Positions 2,861 to 20,632 of a DNA stretch of 45,377 bases are shown here, one piece after another. Every line of letters begins with the position of its first letter. Positions within the stretch are counted from its first letter, which is position 1. The stretch covers positions 1 to 45,377 of the forward strand of contig NZ_JACSWB010000297.1 in assembly GCF_016888135.1 (NCBI RefSeq), read 5' to 3'. The position numbers and the translations under genes were made by a program. The notes below the pieces were generated by a model. The model made no database searches, was not told the origin of the DNA, and worked only from the letters and a program-made list of their open reading frames with translations. The DNA comes from Leptolyngbya sp. CCY15150. GTDB lineage: Bacteria > Cyanobacteriota > Cyanobacteriia > RECH01.

Positions 2861-3946
2861 TTAGGCAGCTATATAGCTATCCCGAAAGACGAAGTGCTTT
2901 TTCACAAAAGGAGACGTCATTGCAGAAAGTAGTCCACCATAATCTAGATTAAAAGTTACCTCATCTCCATTCTGGAGTCCTTGGTTTTCACCATTTAGAA
3001 TAATATGATCGCTACTTGCTCCAAGTATTTCTAGATTCGTAACAGACGTTAAACCAGAAACCAAAACATCTTGTCGTCCTAGAGCAATAATGACTCGCTG
3101 AAGAATTCCCTGATCCTGAAAAATCGGAACATTGCCGAACGCATCCTGACAAATCTGCCCAGTAGGAAACGATGGCTTTTTCTTGGATTCAATGACTTCA
3201 GCCACAATCTGGAATGCTTTTGTATGCAACCCTGGAATAGCTGTTCTTCCAACACTTTCACGCCCCAGAAGAATCGACTCTCCTAAACGTAGATTGTTAA
3301 CTCTTCCCTTGTCTTGGGTTGATTGACACCATTCATAATTGGCTGAGTTACCACCAGAAATGATAGCTAGACTAATATGAAACTCTTGTTCAATCGTATT
3401 AGCCAACTTAGATAGCTGACCCATATTGTTAGCATCTGGCTTGATTCCACCGTAGCAAGCCAAATTACAGCCAATGCCAACCAAAAGTATATTAGACAAC
3501 CCTAGGATGCTTCGGATAAATTGGGATAGATCACTCGGAAGAATGCCTTCCCGCAAATCTCCCAGCTCTACCATCAAAATAATTCGATGATATTTGTGAT
3601 GGGCCTTAGCATAGTAAGACAACTGTTTGATGGTCTCAATCTCAGTATTTAGACTAATATCGACATGTTCAACAATCAATTCAGCCTGACTCAAAGGAGT
3701 CCGTAGCAGTACAAACTGAGCTAATATGCCAGCAGCTTTCATCGTCTGGATATTTTCAAGGCGAGAGTCAGCAATAAATTTAACCCCGCCTTGAATCATC
3801 GCCTCAGCAACTAGGGGTGATCCCAAAACTGCCTTAGAAACTCCCATCAAAGAAATCCCTTGTTTCCCATAGATATCAGTTAAGATACGAGCATTATCTT
3901 GTATCTGGGAAAGAGAGATTTCTAACCTCGGCATCAATAATTTCAT
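2861..3946 (-). CDS. Alanine/ornithine-racemase-family PLP enzyme
   Basis: This 361-residue protein has the fold-type III PLP-binding barrel typical of the alanine racemase N-terminal family. The N-terminal block MGVSKAVLGSPLVAEAM carries the Lys (about residue 38) expected to form the PLP aldimine. It is followed by a second conserved block, ADSRLENIQ. A Gly-rich phosphate-binding segment (SGGNSANYEW) appears around residue 200, then NLRLGESILLGRE. The whole resembles 'alanine/ornithine racemase family' proteins related to clostridial ornithine racemase rather than cell-wall Alr. It probably inverts the alpha-carbon of an amino acid; the substrate is not visible. It lies 22 nt behind a DUF1611 gene, so the two form an operon. 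No good ribosome-binding site precedes the ATG. Confidence 0.8.
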   Translation of the reverse strand: MKLLMPRLEISLSQIQDNARILTDIYGKQGISLMGVSKAVLGSPLVAEAMIQGGVKFIADSRLENIQTMKAAGILAQFVLLRTPLSQAELIVEHVDISLNTEIETIKQLSYYAKAHHKYHRIILMVELGDLREGILPSDLSQFIRSILGLSNILLVGIGCNLACYGGIKPDANNMGQLSKLANTIEQEFHISLAIISGGNSANYEWCQSTQDKGRVNNLRLGESILLGRESVGRTAIPGLHTKAFQIVAEVIESKKKPSFPTGQICQDAFGNVPIFQDQGILQRVIIALGRQDVLVSGLTSVTNLEILGASSDHIILNGENQGLQNGDEVTFNLDYGGLLSAMTSPFVKKHFVFRDSYIAA

Positions 3947-3968
3947 GGATTATGTTGAGCGAGTGACG

Positions 3969-5114
3969 CTAGATCATCTCCAGGGCAGGTATTTTTCCTA
4001 CCCGAGCTGGCTGGGTTGTTAGATTGAGCTTTTGATTGAGTTTCTGGTTTAGTGTTGGAAAATGCTGAATTAAGGTTTGAACCAGTTTTTGGCAGCCATA
4101 GGTCAACACATCTGTCGTTGGTAGCTGAAATTGCTTTTCGTAATCTTCCATCACCCTAAAAACCTCTGCCTCTAGCATATCTTCGTGGCTTAAGGCGATC
4201 GCCATCACCCTGGCTGTAGACATAGACTCAATCAGCTTAATTTCACTTGCAAGCGTCGGCATCCTTAAGTTAGGAAAATCACAACGAACCTTACGCGCCG
4301 GAGGATGCTGAAGAATAATGCCGTCTGGCATACTTCCTTTGAGGATCCCAAGAGAGCCCATAAATGCTGGATGGCTTACAGCACTTTGTCCTTCAACCAA
4401 AATAATGTCAGGACTTTCGTGGTCAAACGCTTGAAGGACAGAGTTTTCGATTTCACCAATCACAAATTGAGATGTTAATGCATCAATAGAGACACCATAC
4501 CTGGCTCCCTGAATTAAACTTGTTTGCCCTGTTGCCACCAAGATAGACTTAAGACCAAGCCCATTGAGAACCTTATTAAGCTCTATGGCGGTGGTCATTT
4601 TTCCGCAAGCGCAATCAGTTCCCAAAACGGCAATCACCGGTACCGTTACCCTAGAAATTTGCCCTGTAAAAACGTGCAGATCCTTAAGCTGGGGAGGCTT
4701 TCGGATGTCTTTAATCTCAACATGATACTGGGCAGCCGCATGGACAAACTCGGCATCTTCCGAAAAGAATTGATGGAGACCATTAATGATCGTCATACCC
4801 TTTTCCATGGCATCTAAGATACTTTTCCGCTCATGAGGTGGTATGTGAGCTTCCAGAGGGGCTTTTCCATAGATGTAGCAATCCGGCACGGAGGGAAATT
4901 GACTCAATGCTTCATCTAGGCTGGCAAAAATAGGAATGCCATTGCAGACTCCTCCCAAAACTTCTCCTGCATCACCGCCAGCTCGCAAGCTATCAATAAC
5001 GCCAAGGATGGTATATAGCTCCGAGTGACGAACAAGTCCGGCAGCAGTTTTTCCATCTAACAAGCCAAATTGGCCTTCACAGTAGACTAAAGCCGTTTCT
5101 TTAATGATTGCCAT
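3969..5114 (-). CDS. DUF1611 (DgcN-like) P-loop protein
   Basis: About 381 residues. An N-terminal Rossmann-like half (VYCEGQFGLLDGKTAAGLVR, then GGVCNGIPIFASLDEAL) is followed by a P-loop NTPase-like C-terminal half. That half starts with VIAVLGTDCACGKMTTA, a Walker-A-like GTDxxxGKxTT around residue 170, and continues with ILVEGQSAVSHPAF. This is the DUF1611 layout. To my knowledge one marine member, DgcN, acts as a D-glutamate N-acetyltransferase beside a racemase of the enolase superfamily. Here the partner is instead a PLP racemase-like enzyme. The ATG at 5114 is chosen because GAAGGA lies about 10 nt upstream; an in-frame TTG at 5132 is the alternative. First gene of the operon. The substrate is unknown. 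Confidence 0.75.
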   Translation of the reverse strand: MAIIKETALVYCEGQFGLLDGKTAAGLVRHSELYTILGVIDSLRAGGDAGEVLGGVCNGIPIFASLDEALSQFPSVPDCYIYGKAPLEAHIPPHERKSILDAMEKGMTIINGLHQFFSEDAEFVHAAAQYHVEIKDIRKPPQLKDLHVFTGQISRVTVPVIAVLGTDCACGKMTTAIELNKVLNGLGLKSILVATGQTSLIQGARYGVSIDALTSQFVIGEIENSVLQAFDHESPDIILVEGQSAVSHPAFMGSLGILKGSMPDGIILQHPPARKVRCDFPNLRMPTLASEIKLIESMSTARVMAIALSHEDMLEAEVFRVMEDYEKQFQLPTTDVLTYGCQKLVQTLIQHFPTLNQKLNQKLNLTTQPARVGKIPALEMI

Positions 5115-5330
5115 ACAAATGCTTTCCTTCAATTTATTCTTAACTATTTAGAAGGCTTCTATCAACAAGCCCTCCCAATATCTAAGGTTGTATTTCCATG
5201 CGAAAACTGACACAGCATTTTTCCATATCAAAACCTGTTATGTTTTGATAATGTGCTAGAAAACTGTGCCGCAAATCTATACAGTTAGGTAAATTCTATG
5301 AGAGACCTAAAACTATTCACTGACAGCAAA

Positions 5331-5358
5331 GATCTCACGTCTTAGATCCTACGTCTTA
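5331..5358. repeat. 14-bp tandem repeat, two copies
   Basis: GATCTCACGTCTTA is followed directly by GATCCTACGTCTTA, matching at 12 of 14 positions. It lies about 220 bases upstream of the DUF1611 start. Confidence 0.6.
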
Positions 5359-5393
5359 ATTGAGTCTTAGCTTAAATCTAGGTCATGTCAATG

Positions 5394-5407
5394 GTAGCAT
5401 GTATTAC
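5394..5407. promoter_or_regulatory. NtcA-type box GTA-N8-TAC
   Basis: This is a perfect match to the core palindrome bound by the nitrogen regulator NtcA. It sits 280 bases upstream of the DUF1611-racemase operon, with a weak -10-like TAAGAC at about the activation distance on the minus strand. Six fixed bases recur by chance about every 4 kb, so the site is only suggestive. Confidence 0.3.
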
Positions 5408-5757
5408 ATTTTTGTGTTGGATGGTACAGGCTAACACAGCACTATCATCTTGCCTTGCTTGTAAAATAAATTCTCAGAACCAACTCGATATCCTTCTAGA
5501 ATTTCCAGACATCTAAGGCGATTGCCTCTCCCATAGCAAAAAGCGATCGCCTTCTTGCAAGTAAATCAAGAACAGCGATCGCCCTCATTTTAATGAGTCT
5601 TTAGGGTATTGACAAATGGTTTTTACGGCACACAACTCTATCTAACAGCCAGGTTGACCCATGAGTTATCAACGAAGCTGTACTCCACTAAGACTTAACT
5701 TAACTTGTTTCCCCTAAGCAGAAACCGCAGTGTAAGATCATGGTGGGTAAACGTTGT

Positions 5758-6444
5758 TTACGAATAGCGGCGGATATCTGAACCGTCGTGATTCGTGTGA
5801 TAGACCTGAACTGTACCATCAACATCGACCTCCACCCGCCAGCCAAAGATAGCAATCTCGGTGCAGACCCCATTGTCTGGCTCAATGCCCAGACAGCCAT
5901 TCCAGACGGCGCTGGTGGCATCGGTCACCTGCAGGCGATCGCGTTCTAGCCCTGTCTCGTCTGCCACCTGTTGCAATAGGCGATCGCTCAACGAGGGAGG
6001 CAGCGGCGAATGTAGATCCGTATCAATCCACCGTACCGCCTGCCCAGTAGCATCGGTGCGATAGAACCATTCTTCTTGCTCGTAGGATACATGCACCTGC
6101 CAGCCTTCGACTAGGGCCATCAGGCAGCTCTCTGCTGGGCCGCCCAACCCTAGGCAGCCGTCCGACCAGGTTTCGGCCGTTGCGCCCACCCAGGTCAGTT
6201 GATTGGCGTCGATGCCGGTGCGCTTCTCAATGTCTTGGAGAACACTATTGAGCACCGACGGCGGCATAGCGCTATCGTCGGGCAGCGTCAGATCGGCACT
6301 GGGTGATGAAACGGTAGAGTCTGGACTGTCGTTGGATTCGGCGATCGCTGATGGACTGGTTTGGCAGCCCATGATCAACAGAGTCAAAACCATCACGGCA
6401 ACGAGGCGGGGGGATTGCCAGCGATATGAAAGAAAACGAGTCAT
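5758..6444 (-). CDS. Lipoprotein with two tandem DGCLGL-type repeats
   Basis: 228 residues. A basic N-terminus, a hydrophobic helix and the lipobox LLIMGC at about residue 27 predict a lipid-anchored exported protein. After a Ser/Asp/Pro linker come two tandem copies of a domain of about 80 residues (about 62-141 and 149-228). Each reads 'L-x-x-V-L-Q-x-(I/V)-x-x-x-T-G', then 'W-(S/N)-D/N-GCLG', a second Cys, then GW-(Q/R)-V-x-V and a Tyr-containing strand. The paired cysteines probably form one disulfide per copy. The repeat occurs in other cyanobacterial exported proteins as far as I recall; its ligand is unknown. No strong ribosome-binding site is visible before the ATG. Confidence 0.7.
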   Translation of the reverse strand: MTRFLSYRWQSPRLVAVMVLTLLIMGCQTSPSAIAESNDSPDSTVSSPSADLTLPDDSAMPPSVLNSVLQDIEKRTGIDANQLTWVGATAETWSDGCLGLGGPAESCLMALVEGWQVHVSYEQEEWFYRTDATGQAVRWIDTDLHSPLPPSLSDRLLQQVADETGLERDRLQVTDATSAVWNGCLGIEPDNGVCTEIAIFGWRVEVDVDGTVQVYHTNHDGSDIRRYS

Positions 6445-6835
6445 AAGTGTTGAAGGGGGTGATGTACAAACGGAAGGTTCAGCATTGGCTTACGCCACAC
6501 ATCGATGCAGGGGGACAGATCCCAAGATCCCAAGAGCCGTCCATAGGCAATAGACCAGGCAATAAACCCTAGCGGCGTCGATCTACGACTTGGGATGGTG
6601 CTCTCACCTATGTCTACCCTAACGGGTGCGATCGCTCCCATGGGTCTGGTTACCAAAATGGATACAGCGATCGCGAGATTCATCCCAGACAGATGGGAAT
6701 CGACAACGAGTTTTGGGCATCCTGCGTAATAGGACACCTATTCATTTTCATTCCGTCATCACGCTTTGCACAACCTTACGCTTTGCACAACCTTGAGAAC
6801 TTGTGTTCTTGGGTGATTCCCATTTTTTGCACCCT
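6445..6835. other. Divergent promoter region
   Basis: A 391-base spacer lies between the leftward lipoprotein and the rightward histidine kinase. It contains HIP1 sites near 6630 and 6667 and an exact 17-bp tandem duplication at 6762-6795. I see no gene here. Confidence 0.6.
6762..6795. repeat. Exact 17-bp tandem duplication
   Basis: ACGCTTTGCACAACCTT occurs twice head to tail with no mismatch. It ends 41 bases before the ATG of the histidine kinase, so it lies in the likely promoter or leader. Confidence 0.85.
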
Positions 6836-9800
6836 ATGGTCGATTCCCTATTGCATACTGTCGTCACCGTGGCCCCAGACACCCCGCTCCTTGAGGTGCT
6901 GCGGTTAATGAGTTGCGTGCAGTCCGCACCGCAGTTTCTACCCGACTCCACTCCTCACTCTGATCTACCTTGGCGATCGCCCGACCCACGTCCCAACTGC
7001 GCCTTAGTCACCGATGCAGAGCGCCTGGTCGGCATCATTACCAGTAAAAATATCATTCAAGCCCTTGCGCCTGACCCAGCCTTTGCCGTGGTCTGTGCCC
7101 AGGATGTGATGACCACGCCGGTGATTAGCTTGTCAGAACTAGATCTGCGAAATCCAGAGGCGATCGCCCGCTATTTCCAACGCTACGCCATCCATCACCT
7201 GCCGGTCGTCAATGCGCAAGGACATCCCTTAGGACTGCTGACCTCCGAGCAGTTCTTGCAGTATCAACTCAACACCCAACTGCAAGATGAAATTACTCGG
7301 CACCACCAAACCGAAGAAGCGCTGCAGCAACGCATTCGCCTAGAAGAACTGGTGACAACGATTTCTGCCCAGTTTATTCCCCTCGAAGCCGCCCAAATTG
7401 ATGATGGCATCCGCCGGGCTCTGCAGGCGATCGCTGAATTTACCGGAGCCGATCGCGGCTATCTCTTTCGCGTCTCTGAAAACCAAAGCCAGATCTCGAA
7501 TACCCATGAATGGTGTGCCCCTACGAGTCTCTCTTTGCAGGCGAATTACCAACATCTACAGATTCAGGACTATGTCGATCGTCTAGACCAATTGAGACGC
7601 TTGCGTGGCTTTGCCATTGCCTCCCTGCCGCCCACGCCGCCCAGCGATCGCCTGCTCCATCGCCAACCGCAGATGAAGGCAGCTATCCAAGTACCTATTG
7701 TGCTAGAACAATCCCTTTTGGGGTTTGTGGGGCTGGATGCAGAGCGATCGCCCCGTCCTTGGGGGCAAGAGACGATTATGCTCTTGATCTTGGTGGGAGA
7801 GATTATTGCCAGCGCCCTCAAGCGGCAACAAACCGAAATCATCCTCAAACAAAGCATGGCCACCAATCGGGCCCTGCTAGGAGCCTTGCCCGACGCCATT
7901 TTACGCATCACCGGAGATGGCATTTTGGTGAACAAGAAGCCCGACGCCCATGGGGTGATTCCCGTGCCCGATGATGAATTTTTGGGCAAACATCTCACGG
8001 ATGTTTTTCCTCCCGAAATTGCCGAGACGACCTTGACCTATGTGCAACGGGCGCTAGAAACGAAGGCGATCCAGAGTTTTGAGTATCAGCTCAAGCTAGG
8101 CAATACGCTTTATGACTACGAAGCCCGTTTTGCCGTCAGCGATCGCCATGAAGTAATGGTGATTATTCGCGACATTAGCGATCGCAAACGTACCCAAGCT
8201 GAACTCCAGCGCGCTAAGGATCAACTGCGGGTGGTGCTCGATGCGGTGCCGGGTTTAATCTCTTGGATCCGCGATGATTTGGTCTACCAAGGCGTGAATA
8301 CGCGCATGGCGGCAGTCTTTGGGCGATCGCCGGAAGATTTTAGTGGGCAACCCATTGGTTTCCTGGGTGGACGGTTGGACTTTAACACCTTTGTGGAAGA
8401 ATTTTTCGCTAGTTCTAGCCACACCGCCACCCGTGAAACCTGTTTGGACATCAACGGCACTAACTATGAGTATCTGGTCGTTGCCCAAAAGTATGCCCAA
8501 GACCATGCCGCTGTCTTTGTGGGCATTGACATCACCGAGCGTAAACGGATGGAAAGCCAACTCTACGAATCCCAGCAGTTGCTGCAGTTGGTAGTAGACA
8601 ATATCCCTGAAGCGATTTTTTGGAAAGATCGCAACTCGGTCTATCTCGGCTGTAACTTGGCCTTTGCCCATGTGGTGGGGCTAGAGTCTCCTGCAGACCT
8701 AGGGGAGGGAAAAACCGACTTCGATCTATTTTCCTGGGCTGCCGATGCTGCTGAGTACTATCGCCAAGACGATCGCCGCGTCATGGAGTCTGACTGTCCC
8801 CAATACCATGTGATGGAGGCCCAGATCCAAGCCGATGGTCAGCAATATTGGATCGACAAGAACCTGATTCCGCTCCACGACAGCGATCGCCAAGTCGTGG
8901 GCATTCTCGGCACCTGTGAAGACATCACCGCCCGCCGTACAGCGGAGCAAAAGCTGCGCCAAAGTGAAGAGCAGTATCGCACTTTGGCTAAGAACTTTCC
9001 CAACGGAGCGGTGCTGCTGTTTGATCCCCATCTGCGCTACACCATCGCCGATGGCACCGGGCTGGAGTTGATGAATCTCTCCAAAGCCAGCATTGAGGGA
9101 AAAACCCTTTGGGACGTGTTCCCAACAGCCATTGCTGAACAGTTGGAACCGCACTACCGCCGAGCCCTGGCAGGTGAATCCAGCAGTCTCGAAATATCTC
9201 TCCGCGATCGCATCTATCTCGTCCAGGTTACGCCCCTCAAGGACAGCCAAGGCGACTGCTTTGCAGGCATGGTCACCACCCAAGACATCACCAAGTACAA
9301 GCGCGTTGAGCAGGAAATTCGCAATGCCTTGGAAAAAGAGAAACAGCTCAATGAATTAAAATCTCGCTTCATCAGCATGGCGTCCCACGAATTTCGTACC
9401 CCCCTGGCTACGATCCTGGGTTCATCGGAAATTTTGCGCCACTTTGGCAACAAATGCTCTGAAGAGAAGCGCTTGAAGCATTATGAGCGCATTCAAACCG
9501 GGGTGGAGCAGATGACCCGCCTGCTGGATGATGTGCTGCTGATTGGGCGTGCCGAAGCCGGTCGTGTGCCCTTCCAGCCCACTCCCATTGACCTGGTCCC
9601 CTTCTGTGAAAATCTCAGTGAAGAGCTGCAAATTAGCACGGGCTATAAGCGTAATGTGGTGATTCAAACCCAGTTTTTACCGGACGCGATCGCGTCCCTA
9701 GTGATTGAAGCCGATGAGCAGCTTTTACGGCAGGTGCTCACCAATCTCCTATCCAATGCAATTAAGTATTCTCATCCTGGCGGAGTGGTCGATTTTTCGA

Positions 9801-11650: not shown

Positions 11651-11766
11651 CTGAGACAGTCTGGGGGCGATCGCTCCTGGGTCACTGGCCATGGCTGTTT
11701 CCCTTCCCAATGCCAATGCTCACCCCTTCGTCCACCTCAATATCTACTTTGCTTAGGAGGAGTCTC

Positions 11767-12951
11767 ATGTCTCAACTACTGAGTCATAAAATTGCACCCG
11801 TGCCCATGCCCGCTAGCATCAACGTAGTGGATCTCGTGGATGGGTATTTCACCGCCTACAATTCAGCGCGGCTGCGGGAAACCTGCCATCTGTTAAGTCG
11901 TGAGGTTCTGCAAGAGGGCGTGACCGTTGGGCTCAGCCTTTCCGGTGCCATGACCCCAGCGGGCTTTGGCGTATCGGTACTGGCACCCTTGATGCAGCAC
12001 GGTTTTATAGACTACATCATCAGCACCGGGGCCAATCTGTACCATGACATGCACTACGGGCTAGGGCTGAGCCTCTATGCCAGCAATCCCTTTGTAGACG
12101 ATATCAAGCTGCGGCAAGAGGGACGCATTCGCATCTACGACATCGTGTTTGACTACGATGTGTTGCTGGAAACCGACGCCTTCATTCGCGAAATTCTGCG
12201 ATCGGCTCCCTTCCAAAAACGGATGGGTACCGCTGAGTTCCATCATCTGCTGGGCCGCTATGTCCACGAAATTGAAACCCAGCTTGGCGTCACCCACCGC
12301 TCGCTCCTTTCGACCGCCTACGAATGTGGCGTGCCTGTCTACACCTCATCCCCTGGTGATAGCTCCATCGGCATGAACGTGGCAGCGATCGCCTTGGAAG
12401 GATCCCAGTTGATGATTGATCCCTCGATTGACGTCAACGAAACCGCCGCCATCGTCTACGGGGCGCGCCAGTCTGGCATTCCCGGCGTAGAAGGCAAAAG
12501 CGCTGCCCTGATCCTCGGCGGCGGCAGTCCTAAGAACTTCCTGCTGCAAACCCAGCCCCAGCTCCATGAGGTTCTGGGTCTTGAAGAACGGGGTCACGAT
12601 TTCTTCGTGCAAATTACCGACGCCCGACCGGATACCGGCGGTCTATCAGGAGCCACCCCTAACGAAGCGGTGAGCTGGGGCAAGGTCGATCCCAATGAAC
12701 TGCCTAGCACCATCGTCTGCTACACCGACAGCACCATTGCCCTGCCGATCATTGCCTCCTACGTGATCAACCAATGCCCAGGGCGATCGCTGAAGCGGCT
12801 CTACGATCGCCGAGGTGAGTTGATGGATAACCTAAAGCGCGACTATGAAGCCGCCAAGGCAAATCCCCAGAAAGCGGCTAACCCCTCTGATCTCGTCGGT
12901 GCCACCAGCGCCCCGGCCACCTATCCCTGCGGTACACCCATCCGCCGATAG
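11767..12951 (+). CDS. speY: Deoxyhypusine-synthase-like protein (homospermidine synthase type)
   Basis: 394 residues from the ATG at 11767, which has AGGAGG 8-13 nt upstream; an upstream in-frame ATG at 11710 lacks such a site. The protein is collinear with deoxyhypusine synthase. It has NAD-binding segments ([23 protein letters not shown]), the GGGSPKNF motif with Lys256 at the position that forms the enzyme-imine intermediate, and a C-terminal [16 protein letters not shown] block. Bacteria lack eIF5A, and in Anabaena the homologue is required for homospermidine synthesis, as I recall. It should therefore move an aminobutyl group from spermidine onto putrescine in the cytosol. The gene is monocistronic, with a long structured upstream region and a hairpin right after the stop. 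Confidence 0.88.
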
Positions 12952-20540: not shown

Positions 20541-20632
20541 AATCGTTCATCTCCTGCGAATCGAAATTTAAGATACTTTAAGTTTAGAGAAAAGGAGACG
20601 GAAGTAAGGAGTAATCCTGAAGGAACGCGCCT
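20541..20632 (+). ncRNA. Glutamine riboswitch (glnA RNA / Downstream-peptide class)
   Basis: The element forms the three-way junction of this class. P1 is CGTTC (20544-20548) with GAACG (20623-20627). P2 is TCTCCT (20550-20555) with AGGAGA (20593-20598). P3 is AGGA-GTAA-TCCT (20607-20618). The conserved junction sequences GACGGAAGTA and TGAAGGAACGCGCC are present. L-glutamine binding to such RNAs generally raises expression of the gene downstream. Here the AGGAGG of the DUF4278 gene lies about 30 nt past the aptamer, so control of translation initiation is plausible. It was identified by eye. Confidence 0.85.

Follow-up and report, generated by a model that had tools for sequence, protein, structure and literature searches.

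A mobile gene pair of a divergent DUF1611 protein and an Orr-family PLP racemase in Leptolyngbya sp. CCY15150 and other bacteria, with a putative role in N-acyl-D-amino acid formation

The window, meaning the whole stretch of DNA analysed, comprises 45,377 nt of Leptolyngbya sp. CCY15150 (GTDB lineage Bacteria; Cyanobacteriota; Cyanobacteriia; RECH01), at positions 1 to 45,377 of the forward strand of contig NZ_JACSWB010000297.1 (GCF_016888135.1). Its minus strand carries adjacent DUF1611 and PLP racemase genes, 22 nt apart, and both open reading frames were indeed intact at the coordinates given for them in an earlier, sequence-only reading of this locus. The ATG of the DUF1611 gene at 5114 agrees with the start in relatives. 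The features of the locus are as follows.

3969..5114, minus strand: DUF1611 gene, first of the pair, encoding 381 aa (Rossmann-like N domain and P-loop C domain)
4590..4622, minus strand: Walker A motif (P-loop) GTDCACGKMTT, DUF1611 residues 165-175, recognised by sequence; invariant at nearly all positions in the paired clade
4446..4469, minus strand: motif QFVIGEIE, DUF1611 residues 216-223 (Q216, E221), diagnostic of the paired clade
2861..3946, minus strand: racemase gene, second of the pair, intact, encoding 361 aa (Orr-family fold-type III PLP amino-acid racemase)
3833..3835, minus strand: codon of racemase K38, the PLP Schiff-base lysine predicted from alignments
3947..3968, minus strand: spacer of 22 nt between the two genes
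5115..5757, minus strand: intergenic region 5' of the pair, with a G+C content of about 0.39

The genes flanking the pair on the left and on the right gave no Pfam match, and no further obvious member of the unit was seen. Both genes of the pair are under purifying selection, with dN 0.056/dS 0.72 and dN 0.057/dS 0.99 relative to the copy at locus L007 (dN/dS of about 0.06-0.08). Elsewhere in the window, a match to the glutamine riboswitch aptamer was detected on the plus strand at 20542-20631 (Rfam, 54.2 bits), as was a deoxyhypusine synthase-family protein at 11710-12951 (PF01916), a polyamine-type enzyme in a bacterial host.

The racemase belongs to the fold-type III PLP racemases (PF01168, 1.1e-22), by its fold and by its Schiff-base lysine. 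The presence of this lysine, on which the sequence-only reading depended, was confirmed, K38 being aligned with the PLP lysine of the alanine racemase of the same genome (Alr, L003) and invariant in all aligned racemases. The profile alignment to Alr spans the N-terminal 173 columns only, and the second Alr catalytic residue was compared by eye; in this comparison, the catalytic-tyrosine segment VGYADG of Alr appears as ALGRQD. The AlphaFold model of the racemase (mean pLDDT 80.9) matched alanine racemase over its full length (Z 27.5, rmsd 2.9, 326 aligned). The two-domain fold-III structure (Z 24-27.5) and the PLP lysine are shared with Alr, BsrV and Lyr, whereas identity to these enzymes is about 16%, the VGYADG segment appears to differ, and Alr is encoded separately in this genome. 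The NCBIfam Orr model (NF040742) was matched over its full length (residues 6-351) at 391.8 bits, below its cut-off of 480, which places the protein, as judged by sequence, in the wider Orr family and outside the curated Orr group. With Orr of the Clostridium/Acetoanaerobium oxidative ornithine pathway it shares, besides this match and the PLP lysine, residues D293, D313, H314 and Y336, which are common to Acetoanaerobium orr (L082) and nearly all other Orr relatives. By contrast, true orr lies in an oraS/oraE operon without DUF1611 (L082), ornithine aminomutase genes are absent near the pair, and the DUF1611-paired racemases form a clade of their own. Orr relatives elsewhere occur in settings of basic amino-acid metabolism, either in the ornithine aminomutase operon or as arginase-domain fusions next to genes for D-amino acid dehydrogenase and guanidino-oxopentanoate decarboxylase. 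On plasmids of Roseateles, Shinella and Sinorhizobium (L077, L079 and L076, about 4700-8140), the Orr-type racemase is part of a protein of about 595 aa, whose gene adjoins a D-amino acid dehydrogenase gene; the arginase domain was detected in the Roseateles copy, and genes for RidA and guanidino-oxopentanoate decarboxylase are annotated at the Roseateles and Shinella loci. These plasmid loci are likely arginine/ornithine catabolic operons.

The partner protein is a member of the DUF1611 superfamily, with PF07755 (6.1e-64, 215.6 bits) and PF17396 (4.1e-21, 75.6 bits) both above their gathering scores (25 and 22.6, respectively) and the P-loop intact. Its AlphaFold model (pLDDT 77.6) matched the DUF1611 structures 2obn (Z 33.8), 2g0t (Z 31.1) and 7xrj, which is DgcN (Z 28.0), and, beyond the DUF1611 entries, BioD-like P-loop enzymes with Z no higher than 13.6. 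The NCBIfam DgcN model (NF041892) reached 153.9 bits, over residues 82-348 only, against a cut-off of 480. The paired clade is marked by the motif Q[FY]xxGExE, whereas canonical DUF1611 proteins of cyanobacteria read D[FY]xxGAxE at this site (29 of the 29 readable loci); residue 216 is thus Gln in the paired clade and Asp in DgcN and other DUF1611 proteins, and Glu221 replaces the Ala of the DgcN type. The gain of Glu221 and the loss of Asp216 would fit an altered acceptor, and acetyltransferase activity may be gone if Asp216 is catalytic. An apparent charge change at residue 279 was set aside, the alignment being ambiguous at that site. The paired DUF1611 protein could act on the racemase product not as an acyltransferase but as an ATP-dependent amide ligase, kinase or cyclase of the P-loop type, in line with its intact Walker A motif, with the exchange of the conserved Asp for Gln together with the gained Glu221, and with the best matches after the DUF1611 entries, which are dethiobiotin synthetase (Z 13.6) and further nucleotide-dependent P-loop enzymes, among them cyclic 2,3-diphosphoglycerate synthetase (Z 12.4). 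We regard this as improbable, as the N-acetyltransferase DgcN is the nearest characterised relative in both sequence and fold.

The pair was clearly conserved in the neighbourhood survey of cyanobacteria. Among 386 cyanobacterial genomes, the racemase was found in 13 (at least 294 bits) and the paired-type DUF1611 in the identical 13 (at least 218 bits), every other DUF1611 scoring at most 163 bits; 12 of these 13 genomes also contain a canonical DUF1611. Outside the window, DUF1611 preceded the racemase in the same orientation in all 27 intact relatives on genome contigs, drawn from cyanobacteria, Nitrospinota and one MAG labelled Planctomycetota, a gene of the M20 deacylase family being inserted between the two at L011. 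The same order was found on seven plasmids, from four Vibrio species and three roseobacters, and the two reading frames overlap by 4 nt in most Vibrio, roseobacter and picocyanobacterial copies. A third gene common to the cyanobacterial and Nitrospinota loci was not found among 28 of them. An apparent "giant fusion" of DUF1611 at L070 was rejected, its upstream part being masked N. The idea that the genes are unrelated, as chance neighbours or an annotation artefact, deserves practically no credence: nothing in its favour was found, and it is refuted by the exact co-occurrence in 13 of 386 genomes, the spread over several phyla, the overlapping frames and the congruent trees. The sequence-only reading, in which a DgcN relative stands beside an Orr-family fold-III PLP racemase, holds across phyla; its remark that this would be unusual in a cyanobacterium is right as to frequency, but the module is recurrent and mobile, and not a cyanobacterial one.

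A different arrangement characterises the second DUF1611 gene of this genome (L065), which lies directly downstream of an enolase-superfamily racemase gene with DgcA as its best NCBIfam match. At canonical cyanobacterial DUF1611 loci, of which roughly 1.5 kb was available, an enolase racemase was found on the same strand in 24 of 30 and a PLP racemase in none of the 30. The DgcN-DgcA D-glutamate pathway (NF041892, NF042940) is known from Pseudoalteromonas, marine Proteobacteria and haloarchaea, and in it the N-acetylated product of DgcN is racemised by the enolase-type DgcA. To our knowledge, DUF1611 proteins are widespread and DgcN is the single branch with an assigned reaction. Like dgcN-dgcA, the pair is a tight two-gene unit of a DUF1611 protein with the DgcN fold and an amino-acid racemase. 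It differs in that the neighbouring racemase is a fold-III PLP enzyme, the enolase-type DgcA-like enzyme being encoded at another locus, and in the lack of an adjacent DgcR-type regulator. These look like two functional DUF1611 branches, each with its own type of racemase partner. In a literature search that omitted many subscription papers, we found no published account of a DUF1611 and Orr-type racemase pairing, no assayed enzyme of the paired subfamily and no mention of COG3367 or COG3457, DUF1611 appearing only in papers on other subjects.

DUF1611 genes also occur in jumbo phages of Erwinia and Dickeya. In Erwinia phage pEa_SNUABM_1 (L099, 2869-5706), a DUF1611 gene is followed, with a 4-nt overlap, by a gene for an Ala_racemase_N protein and then by an Asn-synthase-like gene. 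The order and the overlap recall the pair; however, this racemase is of another subfamily (1.2 bits against the Orr-type profile, so that it was rejected as an Orr homologue) and the phage DUF1611 groups with DgcN. This is apparently an independent pairing. A scan of viral contigs with the racemase alignment returned no relative.

Phylogenies of the two proteins agreed with one another. In both the DUF1611 and the racemase tree, the paired genes formed one clade (support 1.0), with a congruent deep split between cyanobacteria/Nitrospinota on the one hand and picocyanobacteria/Vibrio/roseobacters on the other (support for the latter 0.97 and 0.96), and racemase relatives without DUF1611 fell outside the paired clade. 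In the racemase tree, the Nitrospinota copies were nested among cyanobacterial sequences. The pair has a G+C content of 0.433 against 0.536 for the window, which is close to the lowest values of the sliding-window distribution, and it forms an A+T-rich island together with its 5' intergenic region. Most of the other cyanobacterial and Nitrospinota hosts that were checked likewise showed a pair poorer in G+C than the DNA around it. The low G+C content and the position of the Nitrospinota copies indicate that the pair is a horizontally transferred two-enzyme cassette.

On the mobile elements of Vibrio and roseobacters, the neighbours of the pair include stress genes, namely hflK/hflC and nhaA in Vibrio parahaemolyticus, groES/groEL in V. 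europaeus and hflKC in Ruegeria, which hints at a stress-related metabolite as the product of the module. In picocyanobacteria and Gomphosphaeria, SPFH/Band_7 genes are likewise located in its vicinity; in the former, such a gene lies directly 3' of the racemase gene and in the same orientation (L066 5103-5960, L068 4584-5414, L071 4644-5501 and L072 5117-5974). On roseobacter plasmids L081 (3191-4697), L078 and L085, short conserved hypothetical genes and one for a repeat-containing, secreted-looking protein lie directly 5' of the pair. On a V. coralliilyticus plasmid, a DUF1611 of the paired clade adjoins hflK-hflC without an adjacent racemase, and seven P22-portal-type proviral contigs likewise carry one without racemase, beside nhaA and a cold-shock gene (csp). 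The Q[FY]xxGExE motif was present in the V. coralliilyticus copy and in the two proviral contigs checked. DUF1611 is thus not strictly dependent on a racemase neighbour, and that of the paired clade may function on its own. In the proviral contigs (L100-L106, IMG/VR), the csp/nhaA/DUF1611 cargo lies at about 3400-7060 and is followed by a umuC-like gene in five of the seven. A V. nigripulchritudo plasmid (L093, 4896-6062) carries a divergent DUF1611 that groups with the paired clade, has no racemase beside it and shows a degraded Walker A motif (DDTTISRLST). SPFH/Band_7 genes accompany the pair in picocyanobacteria, Gomphosphaeria, V. parahaemolyticus and Ruegeria, either adjoining it or close by, and follow the unpaired V. 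coralliilyticus DUF1611; this could also mean that the pair builds a D-amino acid-derived part of the envelope or of an SPFH/HflKC-linked stress complex, instead of a soluble metabolite. Such a role seems very unlikely, since no SPFH gene lies by the pair in the window or at most cyanobacterial and Nitrospinota loci.

From a mechanistic point of view, a PLP racemase needs the free alpha-amine of its substrate for the Schiff base and therefore cannot use alpha-N-acetylated substrates, unlike the enolase-type DgcA. Racemisation must then precede alpha-N-acylation, the inverse of DgcN->DgcA, except if the DUF1611 protein acts on a side-chain amine. The proposal that a PLP racemase takes the partner position beside DUF1611 is correct as to the partner, but a simple swap is not, as the reaction order must differ. 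In a first step, judging from its family, the Orr-type racemase would interconvert the two enantiomers of a free, most probably basic amino acid (ornithine, lysine or arginine); in a second, by homology with DgcN, the DUF1611 protein would N-acylate the D enantiomer with an acyl-CoA, drawing the racemase equilibrium toward the N-acyl-D-amino acid. A basic substrate (ornithine or lysine) is likely, since the Orr family holds ornithine racemase, arginase-fused members by D-amino acid dehydrogenase and the ornithine aminomutase operon. With this order, the module would more likely produce or capture an N-acyl-D-amino acid than channel D-amino acids to the L pool. The M20 deacylase-family gene inside the L011 pair speaks for this explanation. 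Against it speak the scores of both proteins below the NCBIfam cut-offs for characterised enzymes, the loss of Asp216, the racemase-free DUF1611 copies of the paired clade on Vibrio-type mobile elements, and the lack of a recurrent third gene that would point to a substrate. We give roughly even chances to a mobile module in which a PLP racemase and then DUF1611 yield an N-acyl-D-amino acid, its substrate, direction, product and role all being inferred.

The opposite direction, scavenging or detoxification of environmental D-amino acids (e.g., D-Lys, D-Arg or D-Orn), with the racemase feeding the L pool and DUF1611 N-acetylating the D excess, has a low probability in our estimation. Release of D-amino acids is known for marine Vibrio, the hosts of the pair are mostly marine or saline, judged by name, and its sporadic and mobile distribution suits an accessory trait; DgcN itself is catabolic, according to PMC12363236, which cites Yu et al. 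(2023). However, genes for a transporter, deaminase or oxidase are not a regular feature of the surroundings of the pair, and a racemase and a D-specific acetylase would jointly deplete the L pool.

Returning to the N-acyl-D-amino acid module, its product might, as a tentative and rather doubtful extension, serve as a stress or osmotic protectant, made by a mobile pathway from an L-amino acid (probably ornithine or lysine) in cyanobacteria, Nitrospinota, Vibrio and roseobacters, and in part accompanied by chaperone, protease-modulator and Na+/H+ antiporter genes. The function of the second DUF1611 branch is directly testable, given the strict conservation of its PLP partner, the motif that sets it apart and the presence of a canonical paralogue in one and the same genome. 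If true, this pathway would give marine and saline bacteria a so far overlooked source of modified D-amino acids, partly plasmid- and prophage-borne.
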